Positions 1,710-18,800 of a stretch of 40,746 nucleotides of DNA are shown here, piece after piece. The DNA comes from Clostridia bacterium (GTDB taxonomy: Bacteria; Bacillota; Clostridia; Oscillospirales; CAG-272): assembly GCA_017473085.1 (NCBI GenBank), contig JAFUNF010000005.1, positions 1-40,746 of the forward strand. The letters run 5' to 3'. The position numbers and the translations under genes are program-made. The stretch's first letter is position 1. Each line of letters opens with the position of its first letter. Under the pieces are notes generated by a model. It saw only the letters and a list, made by a program, of their open reading frames with translations. It was not told where the DNA came from and did not search any database.

Positions 1710-2849
1710 ATGTTCTACGAATTACAACCCAAAGAGCAACAAGAAAATTATAAATTGATGCTTAAAATAATAGGCAGTTTGACAAAATTATTCTCTGATA
1801 GCAACTCGCCATACTTACCATACCGTGTTCAAGAGAATGTTTTTTGCAAATATTTTGAAGCTGAAAATCTTGCTCGAAGCGACAATTCAGCAGATGCAAA
1901 AAAAGAAAAATTTGGTATTGGTCTTAAAACTTGGGTGGGAAATAACGACCAAAAAATTGCTGAATTTGATAGTTTAAGAGCACAATACGCTACTTTGACA
2001 GGAATTAAACTTGCGAAAAAGATAGCTGAATACAGAAATGAACGAATAAGAGTTACCAAAAACCTTTACGATATTGATAATCTTGTATATCATATTGTTA
2101 AAAGAGTTCCAAACGCTATGCAAATTTTAGAACATTCCTTTGATTACATTGATATAGGTAATATCTCTCTCATTCGCAAGGGGAATAAAAACAATACGTA
2201 TTTTACTGACGGTAAACACACATACCATTTTAGCTTATCAAAAAACACTTTGTATATGCTTTTTGAAAATATGGTATTGTTAGATAGTTTTGATGTTGAA
2301 ATACTTGATGACCCTTATTCGTATTTGATGAATTTGACTGTTCCTACACAAGTTGCCCCCCCTCTTCCCGTTGTTGATAATGTCGAATTAGATACATCAA
2401 ATAAAGTTTGTTTGAGATTATATTCCGTGAAAAAAGGCAAGAAAATTGTGCCTAACAAAAGCGGTTTGAATCAATGGAATGCTCTCGGCAGAAAGCGTAA
2501 TGTAAATGAAATTTACATACCATTTCCTTCCGAAGATAGGAAACGATTTAGAGACTTTTTCCCTGCAAGAAACACATCTTTTAAAGTAATTTTGCCAAAT
2601 GGCAGAGAGATTTCTGCTAAAGTTTGCCAACAAGGCGACAAGGCAATTATGAGCAATCCTAACAAAGAGTTAGGAGAATGGCTTCTTCGCAAAGTTTTTG
2701 AAATTAAAGAGAAAACACTCGTTACATACGATATGTTAGAATTGTTTGGCGTTGATAGCGTAGTTTTCACAAAAATAGAAGATTTGAAATATAAAGTTGA
2801 TTTTGCAGAGATTGGCACATACGAAGCATTTTACGGAGAAAATAAATAA
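1710..2849 (+). CDS. Type II restriction endonuclease with C-terminal B3-like DNA-binding domain
   Basis: A 379-aa protein of two parts. The N-terminal half (about 1-210) resembles endonucleases that accompany C5 methyltransferases: it has Glu42, the segment RSDNSADA (Asp58 and Asp62) and GIGLK ending at Lys73, then a KIAEYRNERI helix. This spacing could be a PD-(D/E)xK-type active site, but that is inference. The C-terminal part (about 228-365) matches the NgoFVII/BfiI-type B3 module: KSGLNQWNALGR, NEIYIPFP, DFFPAR, a Q-GDKAI strand and NKELGEWLLRK. B3 domains read short DNA sequences. The gene converges with a C5 methyltransferase, with a shared terminator between them, which is the usual R-M pairing (system A). 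A GAGGTG ribosome site supports the ATG. The recognition sequence cannot be predicted. Confidence 0.8.
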   Translation: MFYELQPKEQQENYKLMLKIIGSLTKLFSDSNSPYLPYRVQENVFCKYFEAENLARSDNSADAKKEKFGIGLKTWVGNNDQKIAEFDSLRAQYATLTGIKLAKKIAEYRNERIRVTKNLYDIDNLVYHIVKRVPNAMQILEHSFDYIDIGNISLIRKGNKNNTYFTDGKHTYHFSLSKNTLYMLFENMVLLDSFDVEILDDPYSYLMNLTVPTQVAPPLPVVDNVELDTSNKVCLRLYSVKKGKKIVPNKSGLNQWNALGRKRNVNEIYIPFPSEDRKRFRDFFPARNTSFKVILPNGREISAKVCQQGDKAIMSNPNKELGEWLLRKVFEIKEKTLVTYDMLELFGVDSVVFTKIEDLKYKVDFAEIGTYEAFYGENK

Positions 2850-2850
2850 T

Positions 2851-2875
2851 AAAGAGGTGCGTTTGCACCTCTTTT
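2851..2875. terminator. Bidirectional terminator between the endonuclease and methyltransferase genes
   Basis: AAAGAGGTGC (2851-2860), GTTT loop, GCACCTCTTT (2865-2874), with T and A runs on both sides. It serves both convergent genes and overlaps the methyltransferase stop codon. Confidence 0.85.
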
Positions 2876-3836
2876 AGTTTAATATTGCTTTTTTTATTTC
2901 TTCTGCTATTCTTTGAATAACTGTTACAACTACTGAATTTCCTGCCTGTTTATATAATGCTCCATTGCATATTGTCGTAGGTAGCATATAATCTTGTGGG
3001 AATCCCTGCAAGTTAAAGCATTCTCTCGGAGTCAATTTTCTTATTTCACCATTAAACATACGAATTAAAGGAACATTATGTCCTCCCATTCCCATGTTTG
3101 CTGTTAATGTTGGGCAAAGCTTACTTTTATTTTCTCTTACGTAAACTCTACGCCATTGATAACAAGTATCTGATTTTGTAACTCCAGTTACAAGTTCTTT
3201 ATAAAAAGGACATTTTTCTGTGTAATAGAATTTATCGTCCTGCCTTGTTTCAAAGTCAATTACGTCTTTTAGAGTTTTTGTCAGCTTAATTGGTTTAGGA
3301 AAATCAAAGTTTTTATACAATTCTTTGTCCTTGAAACATACCAAGTATATTCTTTCCCTTGTTTGAGGTATATTACCGTAATTTGAAGCGTTTAATACAG
3401 CTGATTTGACAAAATATCCGAGTTTTTCTAATGTATCGCTAATAACTGCAAAAGTATTTCCATTATCGTGTGATACAAGATTTTTAACATTTTCAAGAAA
3501 TATAACTTTGGGATGTTTCTGCTCTATAATGCGTGCAAGTTCAAAAAATAGGTTTCCTCTGCCTTTTTCATCATTAAATCCTTGACGATACCCTGCAACA
3601 GAGAATGCCTGGCAGGGAAATCCTGCTAACATTATATCAAAGTCTGGTATATCTTTATTAGCGTCTAAGCCTCTAATATCACACAGTGCAAATTCAACAT
3701 TTGGGAAATTCAATTTATATGTTACGGAAGCATTGTAATCAAATTCGTTAGCGAAAATAGTCTTAAAGCCTGCTAATTCAAAGCCTTTGTCTATTCCTCC
3801 AACGCCTGCAAAGAATGAAGCACATTTTAATTTCAT
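2874..3836 (-). CDS. DNA (cytosine-5) methyltransferase, system A
   Basis: A 320-aa C5-cytosine methyltransferase that would protect the target of the neighbouring endonuclease. All core motifs are visible: motif I FFAGVGG (residues 8-14), motif IV AGFPCQAFS with the catalytic Cys75, motif VI LENV (115-117), motif VIII QTRERIY (Q158, R160, R162), a target-recognition region at about 200-245, then CPTLTANMG, LQGFPQDY and the terminal AGNSVVV motif X. Length is typical for compact family members. It is clearly a subfamily relative of the 311-aa methyltransferase at 9013-9948. The start is chosen at the ATG behind an AAGAGGT ribosome site. A TTGATT-17-TAAAAT promoter and a 14-bp palindrome lie just upstream. 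Confidence 0.95.
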   Translation of the reverse strand: MKLKCASFFAGVGGIDKGFELAGFKTIFANEFDYNASVTYKLNFPNVEFALCDIRGLDANKDIPDFDIMLAGFPCQAFSVAGYRQGFNDEKGRGNLFFELARIIEQKHPKVIFLENVKNLVSHDNGNTFAVISDTLEKLGYFVKSAVLNASNYGNIPQTRERIYLVCFKDKELYKNFDFPKPIKLTKTLKDVIDFETRQDDKFYYTEKCPFYKELVTGVTKSDTCYQWRRVYVRENKSKLCPTLTANMGMGGHNVPLIRMFNGEIRKLTPRECFNLQGFPQDYMLPTTICNGALYKQAGNSVVVTVIQRIAEEIKKAILN

Positions 3837-4039: not shown

Positions 4040-4306
4040 TTAGTCCCTTAGTGCTTCAAGCATAAGTCTTGCTCCGAACTTGAAGGCGTATGAAAATATC
4101 GCTTTTTCTGCTTTGCTTGAGTATTCACTCCAACAATCATCGAACTTCTCAAAAATCGCCTTCTGCTCGTCTGTTAGCGTTGCCATTAGCTCTTCTTGGT
4201 GTCGAGCTATGTATCCCATCAGTTCCTTCATTTCTTCCGTGTTATTTCTTGCATCATCCTGCGGAGATACATTTCCATACCACAGCTCATCTATCATCTT
4301 CTTCAT
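4040..4306 (-). CDS. DUF6809-like small protein (88 aa)
   Basis: An 88-aa protein starting MKKMIDELWYGNVSP and continuing through NNTEEMKELMGYIARH, LTDEQKAIFEKFDDCWSEY and EKAIFSYAFKFGARL. This is the pattern of a small, all-helical Clostridia family I recall as DUF6809, of unknown function. I choose the ATG at 4306-4304 over a longer frame because an AGGAGA ribosome site sits just before it. The gene overlaps the end of the upstream 82-aa gene by 20 nt, so the two are coupled. It is the last gene of the minus-strand block before the flanking repeat. Similar small genes are common on Clostridia mobile elements; a role in defence is not shown. Confidence 0.65.
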   Translation of the reverse strand: MKKMIDELWYGNVSPQDDARNNTEEMKELMGYIARHQEELMATLTDEQKAIFEKFDDCWSEYSSKAEKAIFSYAFKFGARLMLEALRD

Positions 4307-4616: not shown

Positions 4617-5213
4617 TTATGTGTTTTTAGCAGCAGAAAAATCCATTAATACATGCACAAATCTTATTGCAGAAATATCACCTTCATAACAATAACTATG
4701 TGAATATATTCTAGATACATCGCAAAAATTATTAGATATAATATTAAGGTTTGTGCTAAGTAACGTATTGAGCTTGGAAAAATCTCCTGTTTCGAGAAAA
4801 GCAATCATGATAGCATAATTGCACGGACAAGGATATATCTTCTTTTTTGTAAATCGCTCTATACCTTCACCCACATATTCATTGTCGAAGTTGGATTTTG
4901 TAATATTACCATTAATAAATCTTTTACATTCTGCAACTATTAATTTACTTTCCGAAAAATCCAACCTTATAGAAATATCCATTCTTCCCATATCTAAATA
5001 TGTCGTTTTATCATATGTAGATTCCTCAGTCGTAATTGAACTATGTTTGATCAATTTATTACTTTTTATTGTTTCAACCAAGTAATTTCTTCTTGTATTT
5101 TCAATTGGAATTTCATGAAAAGGATCATCAACAACCATAATTTTATAGGCTTTTACAATGGTATGAACAAGATTTTTTATCATTCGAGTTTTTACATATT
5201 CCCGCAAAGTCAT
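4617..5213 (-). CDS. Small PD-(D/E)xK nuclease-like restriction subunit (198 aa)
   Basis: A 198-aa protein whose centre reads MGRMDISIRLDF then LIVAECKRF: Asp79, and 15 residues on Glu95-Cys-Lys97. This is the PD-(D/E)xK active-site signature seen in restriction endonucleases. A YVGEGIERF segment follows at about 113-121, where many of these folds place a conserved helix. The start codon directly abuts the TAG stop of the large N6 methyltransferase gene (5216-5214), so the two are translationally coupled and likely work together: methylation by the large subunit, cleavage by this one. Family assignment beyond the nuclease motif is not possible by eye. Confidence 0.75.
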   Translation of the reverse strand: MTLREYVKTRMIKNLVHTIVKAYKIMVVDDPFHEIPIENTRRNYLVETIKSNKLIKHSSITTEESTYDKTTYLDMGRMDISIRLDFSESKLIVAECKRFINGNITKSNFDNEYVGEGIERFTKKKIYPCPCNYAIMIAFLETGDFSKLNTLLSTNLNIISNNFCDVSRIYSHSYCYEGDISAIRFVHVLMDFSAAKNT

Positions 5214-8120
5214 CTATATTTCCTCCTCTTCAAAAGAATCAGAAATAAATTCACTAGCATCTAAGATAGCATTTGTTTTTGTCCAATTATAGTTCTCTTT
5301 AGTTTTAGCTAAAATATATGTGGAACCATTATAATACTTTACTTTTCTAGCAATTGAAATGCGCTCGTTTATATTAGATAAACAATTAATCATCAACTGA
5401 TCCAAAGTATCACCATAACCATTCGCATTTGAATCCGCATCTGTTACACACACATAATATGAGTACATTGCCTTATGAACAGATACTCGCAACCAGTTTT
5501 CGCCTAGATAATTTGACAACTCCTTAGCAAAAGTCTTTTCGTATACTTTTAATTCTTCATCATCAGCCATAATACTGCTTTTGCATTTTATAGATGGAAT
5601 CACAAAATCACATGTATAACGAACTAATTCTACTTCTTCTTCGCTAAGTCCGTATGCTTCAAAAAGTATATGATCTATTTTGGATTGCAAATCATCACAT
5701 GCATTTTGCCATTCCAATGAAAAAATACATTCATCGTAATTCTTCTTTGCAACATGCATAGCCTTAACGCATTCTAACAAATCGTTAAGTAATTGCGGAG
5801 ATATATTAGGTATCACAAAATTTTCAATCCTGTCAATTCTGATTTCTGGAGGAGAAAGCTTAAACCAATCAGACATATAGAACTGATAATATTCATAAAT
5901 TTTGGAATTAAGCAATGCCTCAATCAAATAAAGCTCGTCAACTTTTGAATTAGAGTAAAAAGAAACATATGTATTGGTAAATAATAAATCTCCTTCATAA
6001 AACGAAGCTTTTATCAACTCTTGCCCTGTTACTTGCGGACAACGTTTTGTTATTACTTTGTATTTAGAAATAAATACTTCTGTTTTCCTAGGTCTTTCAA
6101 AATCGACTGCTGCATTTACCGAAATTTCAGTAGAATTTACATGATATTTAGTTATAGCTTGCTTAGAAGAATTTAAAATTGGCATTCCATGATATTCAAG
6201 TTTCTTTTTGCGTCTTTTCTCAGAACCCGCAACAACTCCTTCGGATAAACCAATGTTATGCATTCTTATAAAATCTTTGATTTTCCTGTTTTCTTGAAAT
6301 CGCTGTACTAATTCATAATCCAAATATGAACCATACTTTAGAAATCTCCAAAGATAATCGTTTTGAAACTCACAAGATGCAATTTTCTTGCACACCGAAT
6401 GCTCTAATACTATCTTCCTTAAATTATTAGAAAACAGGTTCTTTTTTAAAGAATAATATTTAATGTTACCTACATTACTAGTGATAGATTTTGGAGAATA
6501 CACAATATTTGAGCAAGGATAACTTGCAGATTCAAACAGATCACTGCTCAAGTCAGACATGTCGACAATTTCTTTTATAATGAAATTATCGAGAAGATAT
6601 TTTCTAAACTCATAAGCATTGGTACTCGTAAAAATGCTGTTAGTTACAATAAAAGAAACGATACCATTTTCAGTAATAAAATCTCTCGCACGAACTACGA
6701 AAGATTGCGCAATCTGTCTATCAGATATAGAAATCTTCTTATCTTTGCAATAGTTTTCATGCAAACCAGAAACGCTCGCCCAAGGGGGATTTCCTATTAT
6801 CAAATCGATTTTTTTGCCCGAAAACTTGTTATCAATTTTGGTATCAAAAAAATCACTACAAATCAAATTTTTTCCAACAAGAAGTGGAAATTCATACGAA
6901 TTTTCAATAATATCTCTTGGTGTTAAATAATCCATTAACGCAATATATAAACTAAATGCCGATATGTTTAAGGCTTCTTGATTTTTATCTATTCCAAAAA
7001 TCTGACTAGTAACAATATTGTTTAGAAGACTTGGTGTAATCTCATCTTTTCTTCTCTGATGAAAATCTACAATTCGCTTAAAAAGTCCCACAAGAAAGAC
7101 TCCGCTTCCACACGCCGGGTCAAGTCCTATAAAGCTATCCAAATCTTTATTCTTTTCTAAATAATCAAAAGCTCTAGTGATTGTGAATTCTGACAAATAA
7201 TACGGAGTATAGAATACTCCAGATTTTTTTCTTTCCGTTTGAGAATTTGAATCATTTATTTTTATTTCAAATAATTTCTCATAAATGCTACTTATTAGTT
7301 CTATTGGTATATAAGAAAAATCATATCCCAAAAGAGAAAGTTGAGCTGTTCTCATATCCATTCCACTGAAGAAATCACTTATAACATCAAACGCGTCCGT
7401 TCTTTCCTCAAACAAATCACAATTAACGGCAAAAATATCCCCAGAAAATCTATTTTTCAAAAAATCAAAAAACGAAGTTATATTTTCCCTATTTTTACTA
7501 TGTAACAACTGCAAAAAAGAAGAAACCCCGTACTTTAAAAAAGCATTCTCTGTCAGCATTTTGCGATCTTCCATATACTGAACGAATATACATTTAGCTA
7601 AAAAACTACATGATTCAACAGTATCTATTTTATAGTTTTTTTGCAAAATAAATATTGTCTGCATAATGTTAGATAAAAGTTTTTTATCTACTCTTGCCTC
7701 ATTTGGAAAAAAACTTTTATTTGCTTCCCAAAAGCTGTTATTAAAGATGTTGTCACAACAGATATCCTCTAAGCAGATCTTGTATTTTTCTATTGCATTT
7801 GAAGCAAACAACAGTGACTTTTCAACATCTGATTGGAAATTATTGTATACACGCACTTCATTTGGAAAGATGAATATTGACATTGGAATATCATTTTTAT
7901 TCCAATATATTTTCAATTGACGTTTAACCGCTTCTTCATCTCTAACGGACACTTTTTTTATACACAAGACCGGAATCTGCTTGTTATCAATAACAAGTCC
8001 CAGTAAGACATCAGCATCATTTTTTGCTGAATTGTTAAGTATGAATCTTTCATCAAAGCGAGTCAAAATGTTTCTTTCCGTTTCATTAATATCCTGAGAT
8101 ATTAGAATTTTTTCTCTCAT
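5214..8120 (-). CDS. Eco57I-like N6-adenine DNA methyltransferase (968 aa)
   Basis: A large methyltransferase with the gamma-type N6-adenine order: GVFYTP (residues 301-306), SAM-binding motif I DPACGSGVFLVG (334-345) and catalytic NPPW (444-447), then a long C-terminal half (about 560-960) with a target-recognition region as in type IIG/Eco57I-like or PglX-like enzymes. The first 100 residues resemble the N-terminal nuclease domain of type I/IIG enzymes (VLLGLVIDNKQIPVLCIKK, QLKIYWNK, IFIFPNEVRVYNN), but the acidic residue of the ExK motif appears replaced (LCIKK), so that domain may be inactive. An intact nuclease motif is supplied by the abutting 198-aa gene. Start chosen at 8120 because GGAGGAAGT directly precedes it. 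The upstream peptide deformylase ends only 27 nt away with no terminator. Confidence 0.9.
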   Translation of the reverse strand: MREKILISQDINETERNILTRFDERFILNNSAKNDADVLLGLVIDNKQIPVLCIKKVSVRDEEAVKRQLKIYWNKNDIPMSIFIFPNEVRVYNNFQSDVEKSLLFASNAIEKYKICLEDICCDNIFNNSFWEANKSFFPNEARVDKKLLSNIMQTIFILQKNYKIDTVESCSFLAKCIFVQYMEDRKMLTENAFLKYGVSSFLQLLHSKNRENITSFFDFLKNRFSGDIFAVNCDLFEERTDAFDVISDFFSGMDMRTAQLSLLGYDFSYIPIELISSIYEKLFEIKINDSNSQTERKKSGVFYTPYYLSEFTITRAFDYLEKNKDLDSFIGLDPACGSGVFLVGLFKRIVDFHQRRKDEITPSLLNNIVTSQIFGIDKNQEALNISAFSLYIALMDYLTPRDIIENSYEFPLLVGKNLICSDFFDTKIDNKFSGKKIDLIIGNPPWASVSGLHENYCKDKKISISDRQIAQSFVVRARDFITENGIVSFIVTNSIFTSTNAYEFRKYLLDNFIIKEIVDMSDLSSDLFESASYPCSNIVYSPKSITSNVGNIKYYSLKKNLFSNNLRKIVLEHSVCKKIASCEFQNDYLWRFLKYGSYLDYELVQRFQENRKIKDFIRMHNIGLSEGVVAGSEKRRKKKLEYHGMPILNSSKQAITKYHVNSTEISVNAAVDFERPRKTEVFISKYKVITKRCPQVTGQELIKASFYEGDLLFTNTYVSFYSNSKVDELYLIEALLNSKIYEYYQFYMSDWFKLSPPEIRIDRIENFVIPNISPQLLNDLLECVKAMHVAKKNYDECIFSLEWQNACDDLQSKIDHILFEAYGLSEEEVELVRYTCDFVIPSIKCKSSIMADDEELKVYEKTFAKELSNYLGENWLRVSVHKAMYSYYVCVTDADSNANGYGDTLDQLMINCLSNINERISIARKVKYYNGSTYILAKTKENYNWTKTNAILDASEFISDSFEEEEI

Positions 8121-8147
8121 ACTTCCTCCAAACAATTCATCATGAAA

Positions 8148-8561
8148 TTAGATCAATATTCCATTGCTGTGATCCACTTCATGCTGAATAATTTGAGCTG
8201 TCCAACCCGTGAATGTTTTGATTCGTTGTTGAAACTGCTCGTTTTGATATTGAACCTTGATGGTTTTATATCGTTTGCATTTGCGTGGTCCACCGAGAAG
8301 GGATAGGCAGCCTTCTTCTGTCTCATATAACCCATCTTTTTTGACGATTACTGGGTTATACATAACCATATACTCACCATTGTTGTCAAAAGCGATTATT
8401 CGCTTTTTTACGCCTATCATATTGGCTGCCATTCCAACGCAGCTATCTTTATGTGCGGCAAGAGTATCAAGCAAATCAATTGCGACTTGCTTGTCCTCTA
8501 CTGTTGCATTTTCTGATTTTTGTGCCAAAAATATCGGATCGTGAATAATTTGTCGAATCAT
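8148..8561 (-). CDS. def: Peptide deformylase (short form)
   Basis: A 137-aa peptide deformylase, which removes formyl groups from nascent protein N-termini. The metal site is complete: EGCLSL with Cys85, and QHEVDH with His127, Glu128 and His131. Motif 1 reads GMAANMIG, with Met48 where the standard GxGxAAxQ motif has its catalytic glutamine. From memory this short, Gln-less variant recurs in Clostridia, so it need not be dead, but activity is uncertain. The chain ends six residues after the HEVDH motif (HSNGILI), shorter than the usual 150-170 aa. It lies between the stand-alone B3 gene (11 nt gap) and the N6 methyltransferase (27 nt gap), so it appears to be carried inside the defence operon. 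The ribosome site is weak. Confidence 0.9.
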   Translation of the reverse strand: MIRQIIHDPIFLAQKSENATVEDKQVAIDLLDTLAAHKDSCVGMAANMIGVKKRIIAFDNNGEYMVMYNPVIVKKDGLYETEEGCLSLLGGPRKCKRYKTIKVQYQNEQFQQRIKTFTGWTAQIIQHEVDHSNGILI

Positions 8562-8572
8562 ATTTTTTCACT

Positions 8573-8995
8573 TTACACAGAGAAATCAAAATAATAGCTT
8601 CCGTCATCTAGCAAGCTAACTTCTATATCTGTGCGTCCATAATCCCACAAATCGTTAATAGTTATTCTGTGGTTATAAGCAATCCCCATTCGATCTCTTA
8701 AATATACGCCTAATTCAGATTTATCGTCATACGTAGATATTTGTTTCGGAACTATATCCCCATTTATCTCTTGAGTTCCTTCCAAAAGGCAATTCATTCT
8801 AACTCCATCATCCCATACAACATGGATAATGCTACCGTGGGGAGGAAAAAAAGTTGGAAAACGCACAAGGAAATCTTTCCTTAACGCAATATAGGCATCA
8901 GCGGTACTAACATGTGCGTCGGCAAATCCCCAATTTAATCCCGATCTAGTAGGTACACCACCTTGTCGAGGCGAAAATAATTCTAATCTTGGCAT
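8573..8995 (-). CDS. Stand-alone B3-like DNA-binding domain (NgoFVII C-terminal type)
   Basis: A 140-aa protein that is just one B3-like module, the type found at the C-terminus of NgoFVII/BfiI-like restriction enzymes: VPTRSGLNWGFADAHV, DAYIALR, FPTFFPPHG, VVWDDG, PKQISTYDDKSELGVYLRDR and YYFDFSV. No nuclease domain is attached and none could be, because the gene has its own AAGGAG ribosome site at 12 nt from the ATG and follows the methyltransferase gene by 17 nt. It may act as an added sequence-reading subunit for the LlaJI-type complex or the neighbouring methyltransferase, or be the surviving part of a former endonuclease. Family recognition is firm; the role is inference. Confidence 0.8.
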   Translation of the reverse strand: MPRLELFSPRQGGVPTRSGLNWGFADAHVSTADAYIALRKDFLVRFPTFFPPHGSIIHVVWDDGVRMNCLLEGTQEINGDIVPKQISTYDDKSELGVYLRDRMGIAYNHRITINDLWDYGRTDIEVSLLDDGSYYFDFSV

Positions 8996-9012
8996 ATAAA
9001 ACTCCTTATTTT

Positions 9013-9948
9013 CTAAAGTACATTTTTAATTCTTTCTGCAATTCTTTTAATAATTGGCACAACTACGCTATTACCACACTGCTTGTATGCACTCGGCATA
9101 GGTATCTTTGGAAAGCGGTATTCCTTCGGAAATCCTTGCAGAGCAAGGCATTCGTATGGCGTAATTTTTCTTATACCATAATCATCTTTGATTATGGGCA
9201 CTCTATCAGGAAATGTTCCCATATTGGCGGTGAGTGTCGGACAAACATAGTGCGCTTTTTTAGAAAGACCCGAATCGTATATTTTGTACATGGCTCTTTT
9301 GTCGGTTACGATATTAAAAAGATCCTCGTAATAAATGCTATTGTCTGTATAATAATAGCAAGAATCATGCTTGATGTTCCTTACTAAAATGTCATTAAGT
9401 TGTGTTTCAAGTTTCATCTTATCCGGAAATACAAACCTATCACATTTTTCCCAATCTAAAAATGCTACTATGTATATTCTCGTTCTATGTTGCGGTATAT
9501 TACTGTACTCTATGGCATCCATAACGCGATACTTGAAAGTATATCCATATGGAACTAGTGCGTTATAAATTGTTAAAAACGTTTTTCCGTCATCGTGTTC
9601 CAAAAGATTTGCAACATTTTCAAGGAAAACAACTGACGGACGCTTGTCCTTTACTATTCGAGCGATTTCGAAAAACAAATTTCCGCGCGGATCGTCAAAT
9701 CCTTTTTGCTTGCCTGCTATAGAGAACGGTTGGCATGGAAAGCCTGCAACAAGCACGTCAAAATCGGGGATATCCTCAGTTCTAACGCTCTTAATATCGC
9801 ACTCAACTAAGTGCTCTCCACCAAAATTATGGCGATATGTTTTTGCAGCATCACGATCAAATTCGTTTGCCCAAACAATATCAAATCCGGCTTGTTGGAA
9901 GGCTAAATCTATGCCACCAATTCCGCTAAATAGGCTACATACTTTCAT
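9013..9948 (-). CDS. DNA (cytosine-5) methyltransferase M2 of the LlaJI-like system
   Basis: A 311-aa C5-cytosine methyltransferase. Visible motifs: motif I LFSGIGG (6-12), motif IV AGFPCQPFS with catalytic Cys72, motif VI LENV (109-112), QHRTRIY (motif VIII), a short recognition region at about 200-235, CPTLTANMG, LQGFPKEY and CGNSVVVP. LlaJI systems carry two such enzymes because the target is asymmetric and each strand needs its own methylase; the other is at 14176-15423. It overlaps the R2 nuclease gene by 14 nt. It is closely related in layout to the system A enzyme at 2874-3836, and both have a B3 partner nearby. The ribosome site is poor, consistent with coupling to the upstream gene. 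Confidence 0.95.
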   Translation of the reverse strand: MKVCSLFSGIGGIDLAFQQAGFDIVWANEFDRDAAKTYRHNFGGEHLVECDIKSVRTEDIPDFDVLVAGFPCQPFSIAGKQKGFDDPRGNLFFEIARIVKDKRPSVVFLENVANLLEHDDGKTFLTIYNALVPYGYTFKYRVMDAIEYSNIPQHRTRIYIVAFLDWEKCDRFVFPDKMKLETQLNDILVRNIKHDSCYYYTDNSIYYEDLFNIVTDKRAMYKIYDSGLSKKAHYVCPTLTANMGTFPDRVPIIKDDYGIRKITPYECLALQGFPKEYRFPKIPMPSAYKQCGNSVVVPIIKRIAERIKNVL

Positions 9949-11215
9949 TATCCGTTGCTTTTCCTATCTCATCAATAAGTTTCATAATGTCCTCTGTGCA
10001 ATTTCCTTGCGACCAAACAGAAATCAAGTGCTTGGTGTCAATCAAAAACGCACATATATGTGTGTGAGATAACGCATCGTTTCTCCAATTAGCTTCCGAA
10101 TATCCGATATATTCAAGATTGGACTCATAACCAAAAGGATTATTTAGCTTGTTATAAGGCATAACAAATGCGTTATAAACACACTTGATATTCTCTTTCT
10201 TTTGCAAATTACAGATGATATTATCACCATAAGTAATTTGCTTTTGAATAGAGGTTGTTGTCGGCAAATCGTTTTCATTACCTGTGGTTCCGAAACGATA
10301 AAACTTAGCATCTAGAACATATGCTACCTTCTCATCTACTCTCAAATCACTCGAAATCGGTTCTAAGCGAATCGTGTCAGGCCTTAACGAGGAGGCATCC
10401 TTGGGAGCATATCCGTTCTTCTTTAAGTACCACTTAGCATTAGGATTATACTTGGTTATATCTGTAACATTACTGAAAACATAATCAACCATACGCTCGT
10501 ATACATAATGATACTTATCCACGCCATATACAATTTCTCGCGTTCTGTCAGAATCATCAACGCCTGTAAGAACTCGCAGCATATGGTTTAAGCGAACCTT
10601 TTTTACATCGTCAAAGGTACGCATAAGTTCTGTTTTGATTGCTCGGATATACTTTTTAATTACAGAATCCGCGGTTCTTGCAACAAAGACACTCTTTTCG
10701 TTTAATCCGAATAACCAACCGATTTTTCTGACAGAATCAAATACACACCATTTGTGAGCTTCTGTTATAACATCATCACAATCGTTACGCACCTCAACGA
10801 TAACATTGTTGTAAATTACATTACCGTTAGAGATAATCGGCTGCGTTTCCAAGGTCTTTTTCCAATTAATCTTTCCTTTTCCGTTAGCACGGTAAATCTT
10901 CTCGCTATTGCGATAATAACCGTTAGAAAGGTAATCTCTGATAATCCAAAGATATGACATTATTGCAAACTGATCGTTTTGAGCAACACCGCTATCATTG
11001 TTTGTGTTGATAGCGGACTTGCTCTTTGCCAACGAAATCGTGCGTATGATATTCACAACATCGTGTCTAAATGCTTTTTTATCACCTTTATCAGCTAACT
11101 GATAGGATTCTGGGTAATGAAAATGAATTTCTCCGTTTCTTATGCGAAGACCGACAAAAGAATTTTGTTCTTCATTGGTAACCGAATGAAGAATTATCTT
11201 TCTATCATCATTCAT
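9935..11215 (-). CDS. LlaJI-family restriction endonuclease subunit R2 (McrC-like)
   Basis: A 426-aa nuclease subunit. It has the LlaJI R2 signature GKINWKKTLETQPII with VIYNN (about 114-137) and a C-terminal PD-(D/E)xK site: LRPDTI (Asp280) and VLDAKFYRF (Asp302-Ala-Lys304), then a conserved QKQITYG helix. In this family R2 is the cleaving partner of an McrB-like GTPase, here the gene immediately upstream. I choose the ATG at 11215, which follows an AGAGGA site and overlaps the R1 stop by 8 nt, over a longer frame starting at 11257. It overlaps M2 at its 3' end by 14 nt. Confidence 0.88.
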   Translation of the reverse strand: MNDDRKIILHSVTNEEQNSFVGLRIRNGEIHFHYPESYQLADKGDKKAFRHDVVNIIRTISLAKSKSAINTNNDSGVAQNDQFAIMSYLWIIRDYLSNGYYRNSEKIYRANGKGKINWKKTLETQPIISNGNVIYNNVIVEVRNDCDDVITEAHKWCVFDSVRKIGWLFGLNEKSVFVARTADSVIKKYIRAIKTELMRTFDDVKKVRLNHMLRVLTGVDDSDRTREIVYGVDKYHYVYERMVDYVFSNVTDITKYNPNAKWYLKKNGYAPKDASSLRPDTIRLEPISSDLRVDEKVAYVLDAKFYRFGTTGNENDLPTTTSIQKQITYGDNIICNLQKKENIKCVYNAFVMPYNKLNNPFGYESNLEYIGYSEANWRNDALSHTHICAFLIDTKHLISVWSQGNCTEDIMKLIDEIGKATDNESM

Positions 11216-13460
11216 TGTTTTCCTCTTCTTCTGCGCTTGCGGCAACTCTAGGTTCAAATATTCCTGTCTTGAACACGCCTACTCCGTTTTTCTTATATGC
11301 TTCAATAAGGCTCTCCAATGTATCATATGTATTGAAGAAAATACCGTGGTCAAGCTTTGCTACATCGCTCCACAAGTAGTCAAACACTTTATATGCAAAT
11401 TTCTCAGCATCATTATTCGACAACAGACTTTCTTTAACAAAGAATGCACCGATCTGTTTATCCTCGTTAACCTGAAGATCTTCCAAATGTTTTGCGATAC
11501 AATTGTTGATACTTGTAACGAACTCTTCCCAAGTATACTGTGACATTCCAGGAACAGGCATATCTTTGAACTTGCAATTTTCAAAGGAGTTCTTTATCTT
11601 TACTTTATCCCAACGACGAACAAAAGCAGTATCCAATGTATAAACATTTTGGTCGCTCGTGTTCATAGTTGCAAAGATATCCATATTACCAGGGATTTTA
11701 ATTTCGCTGAAAGTATAACGCTTCTTTTCTTCATCAACAACGAACTCATATGCATTGAGATAATCCATCATACTGACATTAACGATTCCATATTCGCTTA
11801 TGCTGTTTCCATCTCTGTCAAGAAGTTGGAATATATCTCCGAAAATTGCAGGAGCATTTCCTCTGTTAATTTCTTCAATTACAAGAGCTACCTTCTTTGT
11901 AGGATTGCTGATTGCCTGAATCAACGCAAGTGTGAACGGACCAGGATTGAATATATATTCAACGGTATCCTTCTCTCCGTTCTTTCCTTTAACTACCTTA
12001 GGCAAAATTTGACCAACAAAATCAGTATTGGAATAATCTTGATAGAATGTTGTACGAATTACTCTTTCCTTGCTATATGCACCAACATATTCCTTGGTAT
12101 CATTGTCCTTACCTAAAATGTCGTGCTCAATGTGATATGATTTACCGCATCCAGGTGTGCCAAAGAAAATTTTGTTAATTGAAGTGCCTTTTGTGGTTGA
12201 ATAATCAAACGTGTCTATTTCAATTTTTGTTTTAGGCAAATTGAGATACTCAATGTATTTGATATATTTCTTTAGAGCAGCACTTCCTGCTTTTGAAGCA
12301 AGATTCTTTTCATCAAATTCTTTCGCTTCATCGGAAGAATTGTACGTGTCCAAAATTCCCTCGTACTTTTCTACATTGCTATCATTTAGATTTGCATCTG
12401 CAATTAAACCTTTGTTTTCCATGAATTCTACTAGACGCTCTAAAGCACGAGGATAGCCTGCATACTTTTCTCGTCCTGTATAGTCGGGATTATTATACGA
12501 TGTCAGCCAAGGAGTAAATCCTGCGAAAATCTCCGTTTCATCTATTACAGGTGCCTCATCTTCTAGTACAATTTCGTCTTTCTCATATGTACCATTAAGC
12601 AAATCATAAACAACAGATTTATAATCATTAAGCCCCCAAACAGACATTGCAGTCATCAAAGAATGGTGGAAAGTTTCGGACAAATCGCTTCTAAGAATGT
12701 CTTTTTTCAACCACTCTACTTTTCTTGTGTTGGCATAATCAACACTTTGATTTTCGTAGTTATTATTATCAAAATAATAATCGGATGTAACTCTACCTAT
12801 ATGGCACACTTCTCCATCAGCAAACACAACATAGTCGCCTACCTGCATTTCTCTAATGAATCGCCATACTTGACCGACATCTTGTCCTTTCTTTCTTGTG
12901 TTGGTGTTAGGCCATGTAGCATCATATTTCACACCCAATTCTTCCCTATTCCCAACGCTTGACAAATCGCCCATAGCAGACCATCCAATGCAAATATGCG
13001 GTGTATCTTCAGACAAAGCGTCATTTTGCATTTTTATATGAATGCCATACAGATTATGATTGAGAACATCGGAAAACTCATCTTCCGCATCAATGCCTAC
13101 AGTATCACCTTCAAGCAATACGTGTCTATCGCTACCAAACAACTCCAAATAAGATGCATGGCGAGCATCAGTAGGTTTAATTAACTCTACTATATACTTT
13201 GAGCCAACCTTATACATTACCATCAAATCACCGATGGCTAGATCTCCTTCCATCTTCAACAATTTCTGAATATTATTGTCGAATCTAGGATCGGTTGCCA
13301 AAAGTAATGTAACTGTTACTTTTTCCTTCGTAGTCTTTCCTTCACAAATAATTTTTCCGTGATCAGCTAAATCGCCAAGAAACTCACGCAGAATCTCTTT
13401 GGTATAGCTCATTTGCTTTTCAATACTCTGCTTATCTATTTTTCTTATATATACTTTCAT
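11208..13460 (-). CDS. LlaJI-family R1: McrB-like GTPase with DNA-reading N-terminus
   Basis: A 750-aa AAA+ motor of the McrB type. The motor part carries Walker A GTPGCGKS (434-441), Walker B VALVIEE (524-530), the McrB-specific INRGN (531-535), the sensor segment MNTSDQ (599-604) and AFVRRW (612-617). Residues 1-110 end in EGDLAIGDLMVMYKVGSKYIVEL, which fits the N-terminal B3-like recognition domain known for LlaJI R1. A second module at about 138-230 (HICIGWSAMGDLS, FIREMQVGDYVVFADGEVCHIG) looks like an EVE/PUA-type reader, so there may be two DNA-reading domains. It should bind GTP, translocate DNA and activate the R2 nuclease. Start and upstream stop overlap as ATGA (13460-13457). Confidence 0.93.
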   Translation of the reverse strand: MKVYIRKIDKQSIEKQMSYTKEILREFLGDLADHGKIICEGKTTKEKVTVTLLLATDPRFDNNIQKLLKMEGDLAIGDLMVMYKVGSKYIVELIKPTDARHASYLELFGSDRHVLLEGDTVGIDAEDEFSDVLNHNLYGIHIKMQNDALSEDTPHICIGWSAMGDLSSVGNREELGVKYDATWPNTNTRKKGQDVGQVWRFIREMQVGDYVVFADGEVCHIGRVTSDYYFDNNNYENQSVDYANTRKVEWLKKDILRSDLSETFHHSLMTAMSVWGLNDYKSVVYDLLNGTYEKDEIVLEDEAPVIDETEIFAGFTPWLTSYNNPDYTGREKYAGYPRALERLVEFMENKGLIADANLNDSNVEKYEGILDTYNSSDEAKEFDEKNLASKAGSAALKKYIKYIEYLNLPKTKIEIDTFDYSTTKGTSINKIFFGTPGCGKSYHIEHDILGKDNDTKEYVGAYSKERVIRTTFYQDYSNTDFVGQILPKVVKGKNGEKDTVEYIFNPGPFTLALIQAISNPTKKVALVIEEINRGNAPAIFGDIFQLLDRDGNSISEYGIVNVSMMDYLNAYEFVVDEEKKRYTFSEIKIPGNMDIFATMNTSDQNVYTLDTAFVRRWDKVKIKNSFENCKFKDMPVPGMSQYTWEEFVTSINNCIAKHLEDLQVNEDKQIGAFFVKESLLSNNDAEKFAYKVFDYLWSDVAKLDHGIFFNTYDTLESLIEAYKKNGVGVFKTGIFEPRVAASAEEEENNE

Positions 13461-14179
13461 TTCGTTAATACCTCACTCCATTGTTCTGCAATCGCTTTTG
13501 CGAATCCTGGGAAAGTCTTACTTCTCCATGTTCTGCGTTCTTCTGCTGTCTTTGTTTTGGTAAGTCCATCAGAATACCACTTAGGAATACGCTTCCCACT
13601 CTTGAACTCTATGTATTCTCCCTTGTCTACCATTTCCGTGGGAACAAGCAAGGGGAGATTCTTTAACCATAAGCAAGTTGACTTTGAAGCCGCGTCTCCG
13701 AAGAAATACGGCTGTACAACTTGATCAGGTTTTCTGAACTTAGTGTTCATTATTCCAACAGGGTTCTCAATAGCTATGTGTTCGATATCCGCATTTGCTA
13801 ATGCAAGGAAGAAGGCCTCTGCTTCTGCTCTATCTTGCGCTCTGTTCGGAAATCTAGGATGCGGTCTGCGCTGTTCCACAGGCAGATCTTTATCTTCGGG
13901 ATGATAGTACCACTTCGCTCCGCTTACCGCAAGGTATGTGCAAGGCGGATGTGCAACCATCAAATCCCATTTTCCTTCAATATAGAATTCTTCACCGGTT
14001 TCCAATCTACCACCGTTGTTCTTAATTACTTCTAAAACATCTTGATTGAAATGCCATTCGGGATGTCCACCGCTACATTTCAAAATATCACAACTAAACG
14101 CATTGTGACCAAGCTTGCGAAATTCGGTACATACACGCTGACTTTCTTCACAAGCCACCAATACATTTAAGATTTTCAT
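13457..14179 (-). CDS. Phage-type C5-cytosine methyltransferase-like protein
   Basis: A 240-aa protein of the compact group often seen in phages. In place of a standard motif I it has LVACEESQRVCTEFRKLGH; it keeps a PPC motif (AHPPCTYLAVSGAKW) and an ENP in place of ENV (IAIENPVGIMNTKF), with a C-terminal ERRTWRSKTFPGFAKAIAEQW. There is no standard target-recognition region and no motif X, so methylation of DNA cytosine is plausible but not certain. The start at 14179 follows a GGAGG site and overlaps the previous stop as ATGA; a 30-residue longer frame has no such support. Its own stop overlaps the R1 start, again as ATGA, so it is embedded in the operon rather than dropped beside it. Confidence 0.8.
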   Translation of the reverse strand: MKILNVLVACEESQRVCTEFRKLGHNAFSCDILKCSGGHPEWHFNQDVLEVIKNNGGRLETGEEFYIEGKWDLMVAHPPCTYLAVSGAKWYYHPEDKDLPVEQRRPHPRFPNRAQDRAEAEAFFLALANADIEHIAIENPVGIMNTKFRKPDQVVQPYFFGDAASKSTCLWLKNLPLLVPTEMVDKGEYIEFKSGKRIPKWYSDGLTKTKTAEERRTWRSKTFPGFAKAIAEQWSEVLTK

Positions 14180-15423
14180 TTGTTTTTTGCCTCCAATACT
14201 TTGACAATTGCTTCTGCTATACTTTTTGCAAACAGCACAGGAACAGCATTTCCTATCATTTTGTAACAATACGCATTCGAACCGACGAATTCAAAGTCCA
14301 TTGGGAACGATTGTAGCAATGCTGCTTCTCTGATTGTAATTGATCTCGCCTGTTCAACATCGGGATGGATGAACATGAGTCCATCTTTGTAAAGATGTGA
14401 CACTATTGTAGGTGAGGGTTTTCCCCACTCCAAGCTACGATACTTGTTGTGTTTTGAGTCTTTCCCCGACATTATTTTATAAAAGGCCAATTTTTCTTCG
14501 TTTGGAATATCATTCATAGATTCAGATATCCATTTTCTAAAGATATCTATATCGCGAGGATTATGATACCTCGCTTCGTGTTGAGATATAACTTTAGTCC
14601 CTATTAAGCCATGCGATACATTTTTACCGCCAACTTTATACGGCTTATCTAAAGGCATGAACTTTGGCATGTCGCCTATCGCGTCTCTCACTGTTTTGAC
14701 AGGAATAGTAGATTTAACCGAATCCAAGCTAGTATAGAAATCTTCTAGCTCATATTCTCCGCCTTTCTCTACTCCAAATATAATTACTCTATGGCGTTCT
14801 TGAGGAACTTGAAAATCGGATGAAGAATATATCGACTTTTTCATTTTTTCAGGAGTTCTTATCTCATATCCAATAGCAGCAAAGGCTTCACATATACGTT
14901 CTATCACATATCGATCACCTGGTTTCGCACTTAGTATTCCTGGAACATTTTCAAATACAAACACCTTGGGGCGGTAATGGGCCACTACCTTTACAAAACT
15001 TTCAAACAAGTAATTTCTATAGTCATCTCTCATTGAGTTTGGATCTTGCGCTCTTCCCGCAATGGAATAAGCTTGGCACGGTGGGCCTCCGATTATGAGA
15101 TCCACTTTGTTATTTCCTATAAGCCCATCTAAGCCATACTGAGCTACAATCGAAGCATTGGTCTTGCCATACAGTTCTAGTGTTTCATTCGACCAATTTC
15201 CACTAATTAACTCGTCTGTTTTTTGAATGTCAAAATGTACCACTGCAGCGTTTGCCTCGGCTTGAGAGTGGTTCCATCTTTTGATCAATCTATTTCTCAA
15301 TGTATTAACCATAGGAGTTTCCCATTCAACATGTGCGAGTCCATGAAGGCCTTGCATATTGAACCCTTCACTCAATCCTCCACATCCCGAGAATAAATCA
15401 ATAAATGTATATGTATTTTTCAT
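14176..15423 (-). CDS. DNA (cytosine-5) methyltransferase M1 of the LlaJI-like system
   Basis: A 415-aa canonical C5 methyltransferase. Motif I is DLFSGCGGLSEGF (9-21), motif IV GGPPCQAYS with catalytic Cys116, motif VI FENV (157-160), motif VIII VPQERHRVI, a recognition region at about 265-330, and motif X MIGNAVPVLFAKSI at the end. It has a different layout from M2 (longer, PPC with a 40-residue insertion before it), as expected if the two modify opposite strands of an asymmetric site. Its ATG overlaps the TAA of the XRE controller gene (TAATG at 15425-15421), so the two are co-translated. Confidence 0.95.
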   Translation of the reverse strand: MKNTYTFIDLFSGCGGLSEGFNMQGLHGLAHVEWETPMVNTLRNRLIKRWNHSQAEANAAVVHFDIQKTDELISGNWSNETLELYGKTNASIVAQYGLDGLIGNNKVDLIIGGPPCQAYSIAGRAQDPNSMRDDYRNYLFESFVKVVAHYRPKVFVFENVPGILSAKPGDRYVIERICEAFAAIGYEIRTPEKMKKSIYSSSDFQVPQERHRVIIFGVEKGGEYELEDFYTSLDSVKSTIPVKTVRDAIGDMPKFMPLDKPYKVGGKNVSHGLIGTKVISQHEARYHNPRDIDIFRKWISESMNDIPNEEKLAFYKIMSGKDSKHNKYRSLEWGKPSPTIVSHLYKDGLMFIHPDVEQARSITIREAALLQSFPMDFEFVGSNAYCYKMIGNAVPVLFAKSIAEAIVKVLEAKNK

Positions 15424-15647
15424 TATTCCTCTCCGTTTCTGTCACTAGGAATAATATCAACAATGTCGTCCATTGTACATCCAAGCGCTGTACAGATCTT
15501 AACTAAGACATCACTAGATACGGTTGCGCCGTCTTTTTTCATTTTTGCAAGAGTTGCTGGGCTGATGCCTGCTTTTTCTGCAAGGTCTTTGCTTTTCATC
15601 TCTCTGTCGATTAATAGTTTGAATAGTTTCTTATAGCTTGCTGCCAT
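15423..15647 (-). CDS. XRE-family regulator, likely controller (C) protein of the R-M operon
   Basis: A 74-aa Cro/CI-type HTH protein: KLLIDREMKSKDLAEKAGIS, then PATLAKMKKDGATVSSDVLVKICTALGC and a DDIVDIIP tail, the YozG/XRE layout. The start at 15647 follows GAGGTGGAAA; a four-residue longer frame is less likely. It is the first gene of the LlaJI-like operon and shares a TAATG junction with M1. A 19-bp palindrome covers its own -10 box, which is the classic position for a controller protein that represses its own promoter and times restriction after modification. The controller role is inference from position and operator. Confidence 0.85.
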   Translation of the reverse strand: MAASYKKLFKLLIDREMKSKDLAEKAGISPATLAKMKKDGATVSSDVLVKICTALGCTMDDIVDIIPSDRNGEE

Positions 15648-15676
15648 TTTCCACCTCATAAAATTTTATTTTATAC

Positions 15677-15695
15677 ATGATATATTATATATCAT
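15677..15695. promoter_or_regulatory. 19-bp palindromic operator over the R-M operon promoter
   Basis: ATGATATAT-T-ATATATCAT (15677-15695), a perfect inverted repeat around one central base. It covers the -10 box of the operon promoter and lies 30 bp upstream of the XRE start codon. It is a strong candidate for the binding site of that XRE protein. Confidence 0.75.
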
Positions 15696-15712
15696 TTTTC
15701 TCTAGAAAGCAA
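15684..15712 (-). promoter_or_regulatory. Promoter of the LlaJI-like operon
   Basis: On the minus strand, TTGCTT (15712-15707), 17-bp spacer, TATAAT (15689-15684). No other promoter of similar quality is evident before 4617, so it could drive all ten downstream genes. Confidence 0.7.
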
Positions 15713-15819: not shown

Positions 15820-15840
15820 AAGCAGGTCTATAGCCTGCTT
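15820..15840 (-). terminator. Terminator of the SEC-C/nuclease gene
   Basis: Minus strand: AAGCAGG, loop CTATAGA, CCTGCTT followed by TTAGTTTTT. It directly follows (and touches) the stop of the 1216-aa gene and separates it from the R-M operon promoter. Confidence 0.8.
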
Positions 15841-18800
15841 ATAGTTTCAACATTTGCCTCAGCTCATCAAAAGTAATTATTTCAAAATCAATTTCTTTCA
15901 AATCGCAAGAAAAAACTTTGTTTGTAACCATATAGTCTTTTGTTGTGTATTCATCACCATTTTTAATTCCAAATAAATTCAAAATATATGATTTGTTTTT
16001 GTTCAAATACACAATTCTTCTAGCAAACTTCTCATCCTTTTTATCATCCAAAAAGAATGATTTTTGGTGATTAACATATTCATGAATACTACCAACTTTT
16101 TGCAAAAACTTACTTTCGATATTCCAAACAACTTTCTCTAATTTATCTATTGCAATTAAATCGTAGTCTCCTAATTCTTTAGGATGATTTCCGCTCTTGT
16201 CGATTTTGTGAAGAATCATATTTTTACGAACGATAAATCTATCTTCGTTATCAAATAACTCTGCAATGTCTTTTTCCATTCTTTCTTCACACTGATGTTT
16301 CCATTTTTGTAGAAATTTGCATAGATTTTTCAATCCATACTCATATGGCAAATAAAAATTAGGTATTCCATTTTCCCACATAGTAACGAGATCATACGCT
16401 AACAGGGGTGCAAAAATGATATTATTGTCGCTTTTTACCAAAGGCTTTGTCTCTATTCTATTAGTACGTTTTTCTCTTTCCCATACAGGAACATAATCTT
16501 CTAGTTTGCCACTGATTTCTTTGATTTTGGTTTCATCAATTATCAAATAATTTATTGCATCATTTATTTCATTCACTGTGCAAAACGGAGGGGGAGCACT
16601 ACTAATATCTTTCCTTATATCACCCAAATCAACAGTGAACACATCCGGTTTGGTTTGAGCATTTAGAAACCGCCCCACAAATCCAACAGAAAAATACCAT
16701 AGAACAAAAATAACTGCTTCTAATTTCACAGAAGTATCCTTATAAAAGCTCTCATATGCTTCTTTTAATTTTTGTTCAACATTTTCTAGATTTGGAATGT
16801 GATCTTGGGTTGTATAAACTCTATTAGCTTTGTCTTCAAATTCCGTTTCCCAATTTCCTTTATGTTGCAATGATAGTCTGTAATTGTCATGAACTGTCAG
16901 ATCCGCTTCTATTAAACCACCATATGCTTGATCGGAAACGTCTTGAAAATGCAGTAAAATTTCAGAAAAAGCTCGTATAAACATTATGTCATCATATGAT
17001 GCTACTTTGTTTCCTTTATGCTCGACGCTAAGGTTGGTGTCGATCGCATATTCAATTTCTCTAATTCTTTTTTTGTTGTATTCTCTTTCTTGAATGATGT
17101 TATGTAACGCCTCAGCCTTCGCCTCATCTTTTATGGAATCGTTTGAAATGACTCCCAATCTAGAAAGATTTAAATATTTATAATGGATGTTAGCAGCTAC
17201 AGAAGAACAAAGTTTTGTATGCAAATCATATTTGTCAAAGCTACTCAAAGTTTCTTCAAAACGTTTTAATGCTACCATTTGAATCTTGCGTATTGTTAAC
17301 GCTAATTCTTTGGAGCTATAAACACCAGGGTTTATGTTAGCTCTTTTACAATCCATAAACATCTGTCTTTCAACACGAGATCGCAAAGCATCATCAATTT
17401 CATTAGGTATATTGATTAACGAATAATAATATGGAAGTTGTTGTTCGCACATAGCCACATCTTTTTTATCCGTTCTTTTACTGTCAATTGTATGTTTTAT
17501 TTTTTGAAAATCAATCAAATATCCATGCTCCATACATTGAAACAATTCTATCATAAATTCGCACTCAACACTTTTGTCTTCAACATCAATTAAATCTTTT
17601 GACAAAGCATCTTCGTTCACTGCAAATCGTATCAACAACATCCCGTTATGGACGCAAAAATCGCTATATACATATTTTCTATTAGCTTTCAAAAAACCAG
17701 TATTATCGACTGTTTTGGCATAATGCATTGGCATATATAAAACATGAATTTCACTAAAATCATAAAAAGAGTTTTTCTTTAGGTCTTCCTCGAATATAAC
17801 AAAATTCTTAGTTAATATTTCATTTATCATCGCAACCTGTTCTCCTCGAACAGAAAAATCTTTTTGTTTTTCAAAAGAATAATTAAATTGCAAAAATAAA
17901 TATGAATTTCCAATTCTTCTTAAGTATCCTGCAGTAAGGCTTCCCGCTTTGCTATGTATTTGTTTATAGTTCAAAATATCTTTTTCAATCCACTCAAACG
18001 GATTCTCAAAAAGAACTGAATATTTTTTTATCGGATACCATTTTTTTAAATCCAAATATCGTTCAAATACATTCCATGCCGCAATATATGGCTCAACCTG
18101 TATGACATCTAATGGATTTTGTATTTCGTATGGAAGACTTTTTTGATTGCTTAACCATGTTTCAAATATTGCAGAGAGTGCATCGTATCCAGCAAATTGA
18201 TTTTCAAGATTATCCATGAATAATACGAAATCACAAATATCTTGAACACTTTCTGCTCTATACAACAAATACACCACATCGTAAAATAGGTACTTGTATT
18301 TTTCTTTCAATTTAGCAACATTTTCTATATTTATTTTGTTATCATAAACAATATACGCAAACTGATTAAACTTACTCAAATCAATTGCTTTGCTATATCC
18401 TTCTTCGTTAGATATTCCTTCGACAAAGTGTAGTTCGCCTTTTTTAGCGCAGTGTTGTATTTTTAAGATTAAATTATTTATGTTTCCTCTTTGCTTCTCT
18501 TCATTTATGAAGAAAACTGCCGTTTGATTTTCTACAAGTATAAAATCTATAACTTGATTATTTAATCTTTTCGATTCAACATCCTCTATCAAAAAACTCA
18601 TTGTTAATAAATTATGATGTTTTGGATCTTTAGAGAAGTTATTAACAATAGTATTATACATGGCTTGTCTAGCTGCTTGAATAATCTCATTAGAATTCTT
18701 CTGTTTTATCAGCAAATGAAAATAATCTATTATAAAACTTGAATTGAACAAAGGATAATAATTGTTTGAATCAACTTCAATAAAATGTGTTTTTTCAATA

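Follow-up and report, generated by a model that had tools for sequence, protein, structure and literature searches.

The 40.7-kb window analysed here, the whole contig JAFUNF010000005.1 of a draft Clostridia bacterium genome, carries on its minus strand, from 15647 down to 4617, ten closely packed genes that the initial annotation had read as one composite restriction-modification run under a single controller promoter. We find that the run is very probably a set of defence cassettes stacked in one direction, the last of them an unnamed split type IIG-like pair, and not one obligate machine. This pair, an N6-adenine methyltransferase (N6) followed by a small nuclease-like protein (Nuc), stands behind a LlaJI-type set of genes (XRE, M1, C5-like, R1, R2 and M2), a stand-alone B3 gene and a peptide deformylase-like gene. 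Gene order, gene families, the conserved pairing with its conserved residues and a seam in base composition can all be observed directly.

The N6 methylase and its small nuclease-like partner

5214..8120, minus strand: N6-adenine methyltransferase (P0009), type IIG-like; Eco57I/N6_Mtase (PF07669, PF02384), PDLC03603, NPPW at 444
4617..5213, minus strand: small nuclease-like protein (P0010), with E38, D79 and E95-x-K97

Close relatives of N6 were drawn from plasmids (109 records matched; 20 were listed and 12 of these taken), from IMG/VR contigs (all four found) and from 388 genomes of the same order (the only one besides the window's own at E≤1e-30). Behind N6, a homologue of the small protein is present in 17 of these 17 fetched loci, in 15 of them as the very next gene; the two are separated by an annotated 45-amino acid (aa) open reading frame (ORF) in L225 and by an ORF of the interrupted N6 gene in L226, where the gene after that ORF is the Nuc homologue (E=5e-47). 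The window Nuc matches those of L213 and L214 in blastp (1e-6), to which L023 and L215 are in turn linked (1e-6 to 4e-5), and with these four as seeds a profile found the other 13 of the 17. When built without the window, the profile recovered P0010 at E=1e-7 among 1280 proteins, with the best decoy at 0.63. That the small nuclease is an orphan of the window was considered and rejected, the gene after N6 in distant relatives having proved homologous. In the 17 loci, 178 kb in total, tblastn gave no match to R1, R2, B3 or deformylase.

Six residues (E38, D79, E95, K97, Y113 and H187) are invariant in all 18 small proteins, that of the window and the 17 others. Because the pattern, an invariant D and E-x-K with an upstream E, is that of PD-(D/E)xK, P0010 is read, by motif conservation, as a PD-(D/E)xK-like nuclease. 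The family is unnamed, with no match in Pfam (window protein and eight others) or PADLOC (18 of 18) and, for the window protein only, none in NCBIfam or PHROGs. As a query on its own, P0010 yielded nothing in the plasmid and phage tblastn or in the viral scan.

Hits to the PADLOC type IIG models PDLC03603 and PDLC03623 came from the window N6 and from all five relatives that were scanned, the L220 protein matching at E=2e-240 over residues 10–1030 of 1039. The window N6 thus shares with type IIG an adenine methylase of the Eco57I/N6_Mtase kind. The two models, however, are labelled as restriction plus methylation in one protein, whereas in the window N6 no [DE]xK is conserved in the N-terminal domain, and the nuclease-like gene is a separate one, as it is in 17 of 17 close relatives. 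Over the stretch inspected, which was window residues 1–125 and not the rest of the chain, 18 aligned N6 N-termini hold no conserved [DE]xK: single triplets are scattered and the only invariant position is a Trp. Six weaker relatives (L241–L246) formed a contrast set. In four of these (L243–L246) a D...[DE]xK of their own could be recognized by eye (VEAKRR, FELKG, VEAKKP and IELKKP) and no Nuc gene was found (best profile E 0.6), while in L242 the N6 N-terminal profile gave a match (E=2e-22 in the set of six) and a single gene separates this N6 relative from a Nuc gene (E=7e-9). Altogether, Nuc is present in 18 of the 23 N6 relatives examined and absent from five, four with their own motif and one broken. 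The lack of a conserved [DE]xK in the N6 N-terminal domain would account for the pairing with Nuc, and the way in which Nuc and an own [DE]xK are distributed over the 23 relatives leads us to read N6–Nuc as a split type IIG system.

In such a system the N6 methylase would modify DNA and probably also recognize the site; its N-terminal nuclease-like domain would be without a catalytic motif, and cutting of unmodified DNA would fall to the separate PD-(D/E)xK-like protein. We infer both the cutting and the contact between N6 and Nuc as subunits, and also that read-through from upstream probably drives expression of the window pair, the deformylase stop and the N6 start being only 27 nt apart. 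No paper on split type IIG systems turned up in the part of the literature that our search covered. If the split reading is true, restriction by methylases that present models class as complete type IIG enzymes, whether they lie on plasmids, on IMG/VR contigs or on chromosomes, would depend on a second gene, and a function would be assigned to a nuclease family that the libraries searched do not name.

The LlaJI-type core and its relatives

The putative promoter and the eight genes upstream of the pair are:

15677..15712, minus strand: putative promoter of the run (TTGCTT 15712–15707, 17 nt, TATAAT 15689–15684; read by eye)
15423..15647, minus strand: XRE/HTH_26 regulator (P0001); PF13443, E=6e-20
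14176..15423, minus strand: M1, C5 methyltransferase (P0002); PF00145, E=3e-57; PPCQ, ENV and QxRxR present
13457..14179, minus strand: C5-like protein (P0003); PHROG 757 DNA methyltransferase, E=8e-62
11208..13460, minus strand: R1 (P0004), LlaJI.R1-type N-terminal domain and McrB-like AAA
9935..11215, minus strand: R2 (P0005), LlaJI endonuclease subunit; PF09563, E=7e-33
9013..9948, minus strand: M2, second C5 methyltransferase (P0006); PF00145, E=8e-87
8573..8995, minus strand: stand-alone NgoFVII-type B3 DNA-binding domain (P0007); NgoFVII_C B3 PF20731, E=3e-27
8148..8561, minus strand: PRK09218-type peptide deformylase-like protein (P0008); NF006670, 199.5 bits against a cut-off of 162

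To judge from sequence matches, XRE–M1–C5-like–R1–R2–M2 is a LlaJI-type system, as the initial annotation had it. Besides the PF09563 match of R2 and two C5 methylases in the same direction, residues 1–117 of R1 match the solved LlaJI.R1 domain 6c5d (E=1e-7) and R1 also matches the McrB structure 6hz4 (E=6e-9), with GTPGCGKS at 434 and MNTSD at 599; in R2, the PD...D/ExK residues D280, D302 and K304 are invariant in four of four aligned sequences. The LlaJI report describes a system of Lactococcus plasmid pNP40 with two 5-methylcytosine (m5C) methylases, a specificity subunit, R1, with a GTP-binding part, and a subunit believed to cut, R2 (PMC1459862). The window core is like it in its two C5 methylases, in having all genes in one direction, in an R1 with McrB-like C-terminus and specificity role and in an R2 with PD...D/ExK, but unlike it in having XRE first, the PHROG 757 C5-like gene between M1 and R1, and M2 after R2. 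LlaJI's own recognition site is GACGC/GCGTC. In the window cassette, M1 and M2 would protect an asymmetric site that the R1 N-terminal domain would recognize, R1 working as a McrB-like motor and R2 cutting. B3 and deformylase, as the next part of the stack, would be accessory cargo.

An R2 alignment scan of genome contigs (84,980 species) confirmed 232 relatives, of which the best 80 were kept with flanks of up to 10 kb (L057 is apparently the same contig as L007). In tblastn of the window proteins against these 80 loci (E≤1e-3), R1 was found in 79 and XRE relatives in nine, and a C5-like homologue (79% identical) lies between M1 and R1 in three, L060–L062, which are near-identical to one another; the assignment of a head XRE gene and a C5-like gene to the core therefore holds up. 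A methylase stands directly after R2 in four of the 79 loci in which R2 was mapped, and since the closest M2 relatives (75% and 74% identical) occupy this position in L053 and L054, M2 belongs with R1–R2. The same search detected B3, deformylase, Nuc and P0012 in none of the 80 loci. The Nuc profile, moreover, gave no match at E≤1 among their 3514 ORFs of at least 60 aa, and the best match of the N6 N-terminal profile to their ORFs of at least 300 aa was only 0.04. The N6 methylase and the nuclease had been taken for parts of a LlaJI composite; this is not supported, given the empty profile search and the 17 of 17 N6–nuclease loci without R1, R2, B3 or deformylase in the fetched flanks, so that on the question of whether the two parts co-occur the neighbourhoods largely show them occurring separately.

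Partial N6-type methylase matches were nevertheless present in eight of the 80 LlaJI loci (L057, L059, L063, L091, L095, L110, L113 and L126), and in six of the eight the match lies immediately upstream of a C5 methylase and R1. Such loci possibly combine N6-methyladenine (m6A) and m5C protection, and the mixture of the two chemistries, which the initial annotation had remarked on, is hence not peculiar to the window.

A second LlaJI sample, from 394 genomes of the same order, gave five loci besides the window's. In one of these, L009, a gap of 33 nt separates R2 of the R1–R2 pair from a B3-bearing enzyme (67% identical to P0012), behind which come an opposed C5 methylase and a deformylase 74% identical to the window copy. 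L009 is the sole outside support for a LlaJI–B3–deformylase group, and the proposal that B3 and deformylase are joined to LlaJI is weakly borne out by it, set against 80 of 80 loci in which neither was detected. P0007 shares its B3 domain (PF20731) with NgoFVII/PLD-type restriction enzymes but, unlike NgoFVII-like enzymes, consists of that domain alone, the nuclease domain being absent. Its relatives in L019–L022 are the C-terminal parts of longer proteins (349, 319, 355 and 216 aa respectively). The closest one found, in L019 (Lactococcus plasmid p275D), is the C-terminus of an annotated PLD-domain endonuclease that faces two C5 methylases, one of them 44% identical to M1.

Spacing, composition and competing explanations

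All ten ORFs of the noted run are present, with neighbour distances in gene order of −1, −4, −4, −8, −14, +17, +11, +27 and 0 nt, in agreement with the overlaps or gaps of at most 27 nt described earlier. Likewise as described, no terminator-like site occurs on the minus strand in any gap between 15647 and 4617, those on this strand lying all inside the coding sequence of R1, N6 and Nuc; a separate operon set off by a terminator was rejected on this ground. Purine-rich stretches resembling ribosome sites precede the starts and, judged by eye, are weakest for M2 and the deformylase. Just upstream of the run, after the gene for a SEC-C protein, there is a terminator-like site at 15840–15820. A 19-bp inverted repeat (15695–15677), noticed by eye, contains the candidate −10 ahead of XRE and is a possible XRE operator. 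Given the promoter-like site and this repeat, XRE is plausible as a self-regulating head gene, and its helix–turn–helix (HTH) domain and head position fit a restriction controller (C) protein, with the operator assigned by eye only. Promoter-like matches as a whole were at chance level in the promoter scan (82 found vs 78.7 expected, standard deviation 8.4), so a single promoter for the run is not demonstrable from sequence. Beyond 4617, a gap of 81 nt leads to two small ORFs (4535–4287 and 4306–4040), into which the run may extend; the hairpin behind them (4035–4013) has a terminator score on the plus strand only.

Base composition divides the run, with G+C at 0.381 over 8148–15647 vs 0.304 over 4617–8120. 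The best change point in 4617–15647 falls at 8161, the deformylase/N6 border, with a log-likelihood gain of 32 compared with at most 12.4 in 300 block shuffles, and in G+C the B3 and deformylase genes go with the LlaJI part. Codon usage was set aside, since distances from cassette to cassette overlapped with those from one LlaJI gene to another.

Operon-like spacing can come about when unrelated defence cassettes are stacked, as the locus shows, so close packing by itself says little in favour of a composite system. That all ten genes form a true composite, one regulated system under the XRE promoter with two methylation chemistries, would fit the gaps of −14 to +27 nt free of terminator-like sites, the partial N6-type matches in eight of 80 LlaJI loci and the joining of LlaJI, B3 enzyme and deformylase in L009. 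It is highly unlikely, however, in view of the 80 of 80 LlaJI loci in which Nuc, B3 and deformylase went undetected, the 17 of 17 close N6 relatives that keep Nuc without detected LlaJI genes, and the seam at 8161. A smaller composite, in which LlaJI, C5 methylase, B3 protein and deformylase recur together and only N6–Nuc was added later, agrees with a seam placed after the deformylase, with B3 and deformylase at LlaJI G+C, and with the L009 order of R1–R2–B3 enzyme, opposed C5 methylase and deformylase; yet two cases, the window and L009, face 80 loci with neither gene detected, and in the closest loci, L053 and L054, M2 is followed by neither B3 nor deformylase, making this explanation rather unlikely. 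As to the B3 gene itself, there is about an even chance that it is what was left of an NgoFVII-like restriction enzyme after loss of the nuclease half. Its relatives being C-terminal parts of longer proteins (L019–L022), and the Lactococcus one belonging to an annotated PLD-domain endonuclease beside an M1-like methylase (44%), point that way, but P0007 comes with a ribosome-site-like stretch (aaggag), its 140-aa frame is clean, and the 17 nt to M2 leave no space for an upstream remnant.

Several points weigh against reading the run as stacked cassettes that end in a split pair. By its tight spacing, one transcript for all ten genes is possible, and the L009 combination means that the B3–deformylase part may not be chance. 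The 80 LlaJI loci are the best of 232 and include several short contigs (3.1–21.3 kb, some ending soon after R2), so some downstream genes went unseen. The window Nuc recovers by tblastn only one of the 17 known N6–Nuc pairs; with tblastn this insensitive, its failure to find Nuc in any of the 80 loci counts for little, and the claim depends on the profile search. In the 17-sequence profile used for the Nuc searches, the L226 row is the wrong ORF, and in direct blastp the window Nuc is not significantly similar to those of L215 and L023 (0.03 and 0.5). No solved structure matched the Nuc profile, and with no solved relative the PD-(D/E)xK assignment rests on motif conservation. Finally, Nuc is missing from L241, whose N6 relative, although cut short at 372 aa, matches the N6 N-terminal profile (E=4e-45).

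The deformylase gene and the surroundings of the run

P0008 has the deformylase metal site (EGCLS and QHExDH), and since a 35% deformylase-like match exists elsewhere in the same genome (C8) it is an extra copy; a further deformylase-like match in that genome (G000:C14:1864-2154) is degraded, with five internal stops. The subfamily keeps QHE and the His of the second metal motif, the Asp in 82 of 83 members and EGCLS mostly. Motif I of known deformylases is GxGxAAxQ, and at the position of its Gln all 83 aligned members have Met.

Of 104 deformylase places found besides the window's own in 382 genomes of the order, the 82 better-scoring were fetched, and six of these lie in or beside defence genes. 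In L140 the deformylase is 18 nt upstream of Hachiman HamA–HamB (E=3e-102 and 2e-278), although none of the window proteins scanned was identified as Hachiman, and in L147 it stands two genes before a HamB-like gene (E=1e-51). It accompanies a C5 methylase and a GHKL-type ATPase in L146, overlaps one C5 methylase with another next to it in L153, and is near PDC-S50 and HerA matches in L143; L009 is the sixth. For the other 76, the genes beside the deformylase are of other kinds or the neighbours were not identified. These links were noticed by eye, after which ten proteins were checked, so the six of 82 is an incomplete count without a scored background; the 869-aa neighbour in L153 and the 245-aa one in L147 matched no PADLOC family. 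In a bulk check of 97 deformylase neighbours, at most three members matched any one family, and all 25 families shown, of 130, were methylases. The deformylase tree, many forks of which are unresolved, groups the six defence-linked copies in a single clade of 24 rows that does not include the window copy, and against other labelled rows clustering of the defence label did not exceed that in shuffles. Ordinary metabolic genes surround the closest plasmid deformylase, L230 (73%), a setting that weighs against a general defence role. Within its coverage, our literature search met no paper linking deformylase to restriction, defence islands, Hachiman, or anti-phage or phage-encoded settings. It is thus a lead, not a result, that deformylase and defence genes are associated, and we think it unlikely that a shallow clade of PRK09218-type deformylases, repeatedly placed within or right next to different anti-phage operons (Hachiman, HamB-like, C5-methylase and LlaJI), works for defence with the window as one case; if it did, the enzyme might serve as a phage-resistant spare deformylase or act on the N-terminus of a defence protein.

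The genes at 24.1–26.7 kb of the window are conserved as a pair in one genome of the same genus and one of the same family, and the 19.9-kb stretches from those two genomes hold no matches to the window's defence genes, so the left half of the window looks like acquired cargo. Relatives of the small gene at 4040–4306 (88 aa) occur near defence cargo in L007/L057, L009, L023, L054, L146 and L147, and this gene may mark a cargo site of mobile elements. Further left, a second C5 methylase (2874–3836, minus strand) converges on a 379-aa protein (1710–2849, plus strand) with a C-terminal NgoFVII-type B3 domain. From these domains 1710–3836 looks like another restriction pair, and its relatives (56% and 67%) are neighbours in L009. 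An HTH gene at 486–1073 has a 40% relative in L023, the genome of the same order with an N6–Nuc pair, which suggests that the window and L023 may be parts of related mobile elements. On the other side of the run, 15839–19489 encodes the 1216-aa SEC-C protein, in which the SEC-C motif at the N-terminus is the only Pfam family; its gene is low in G+C like the N6–Nuc pair and has the terminator-like hairpin after it.

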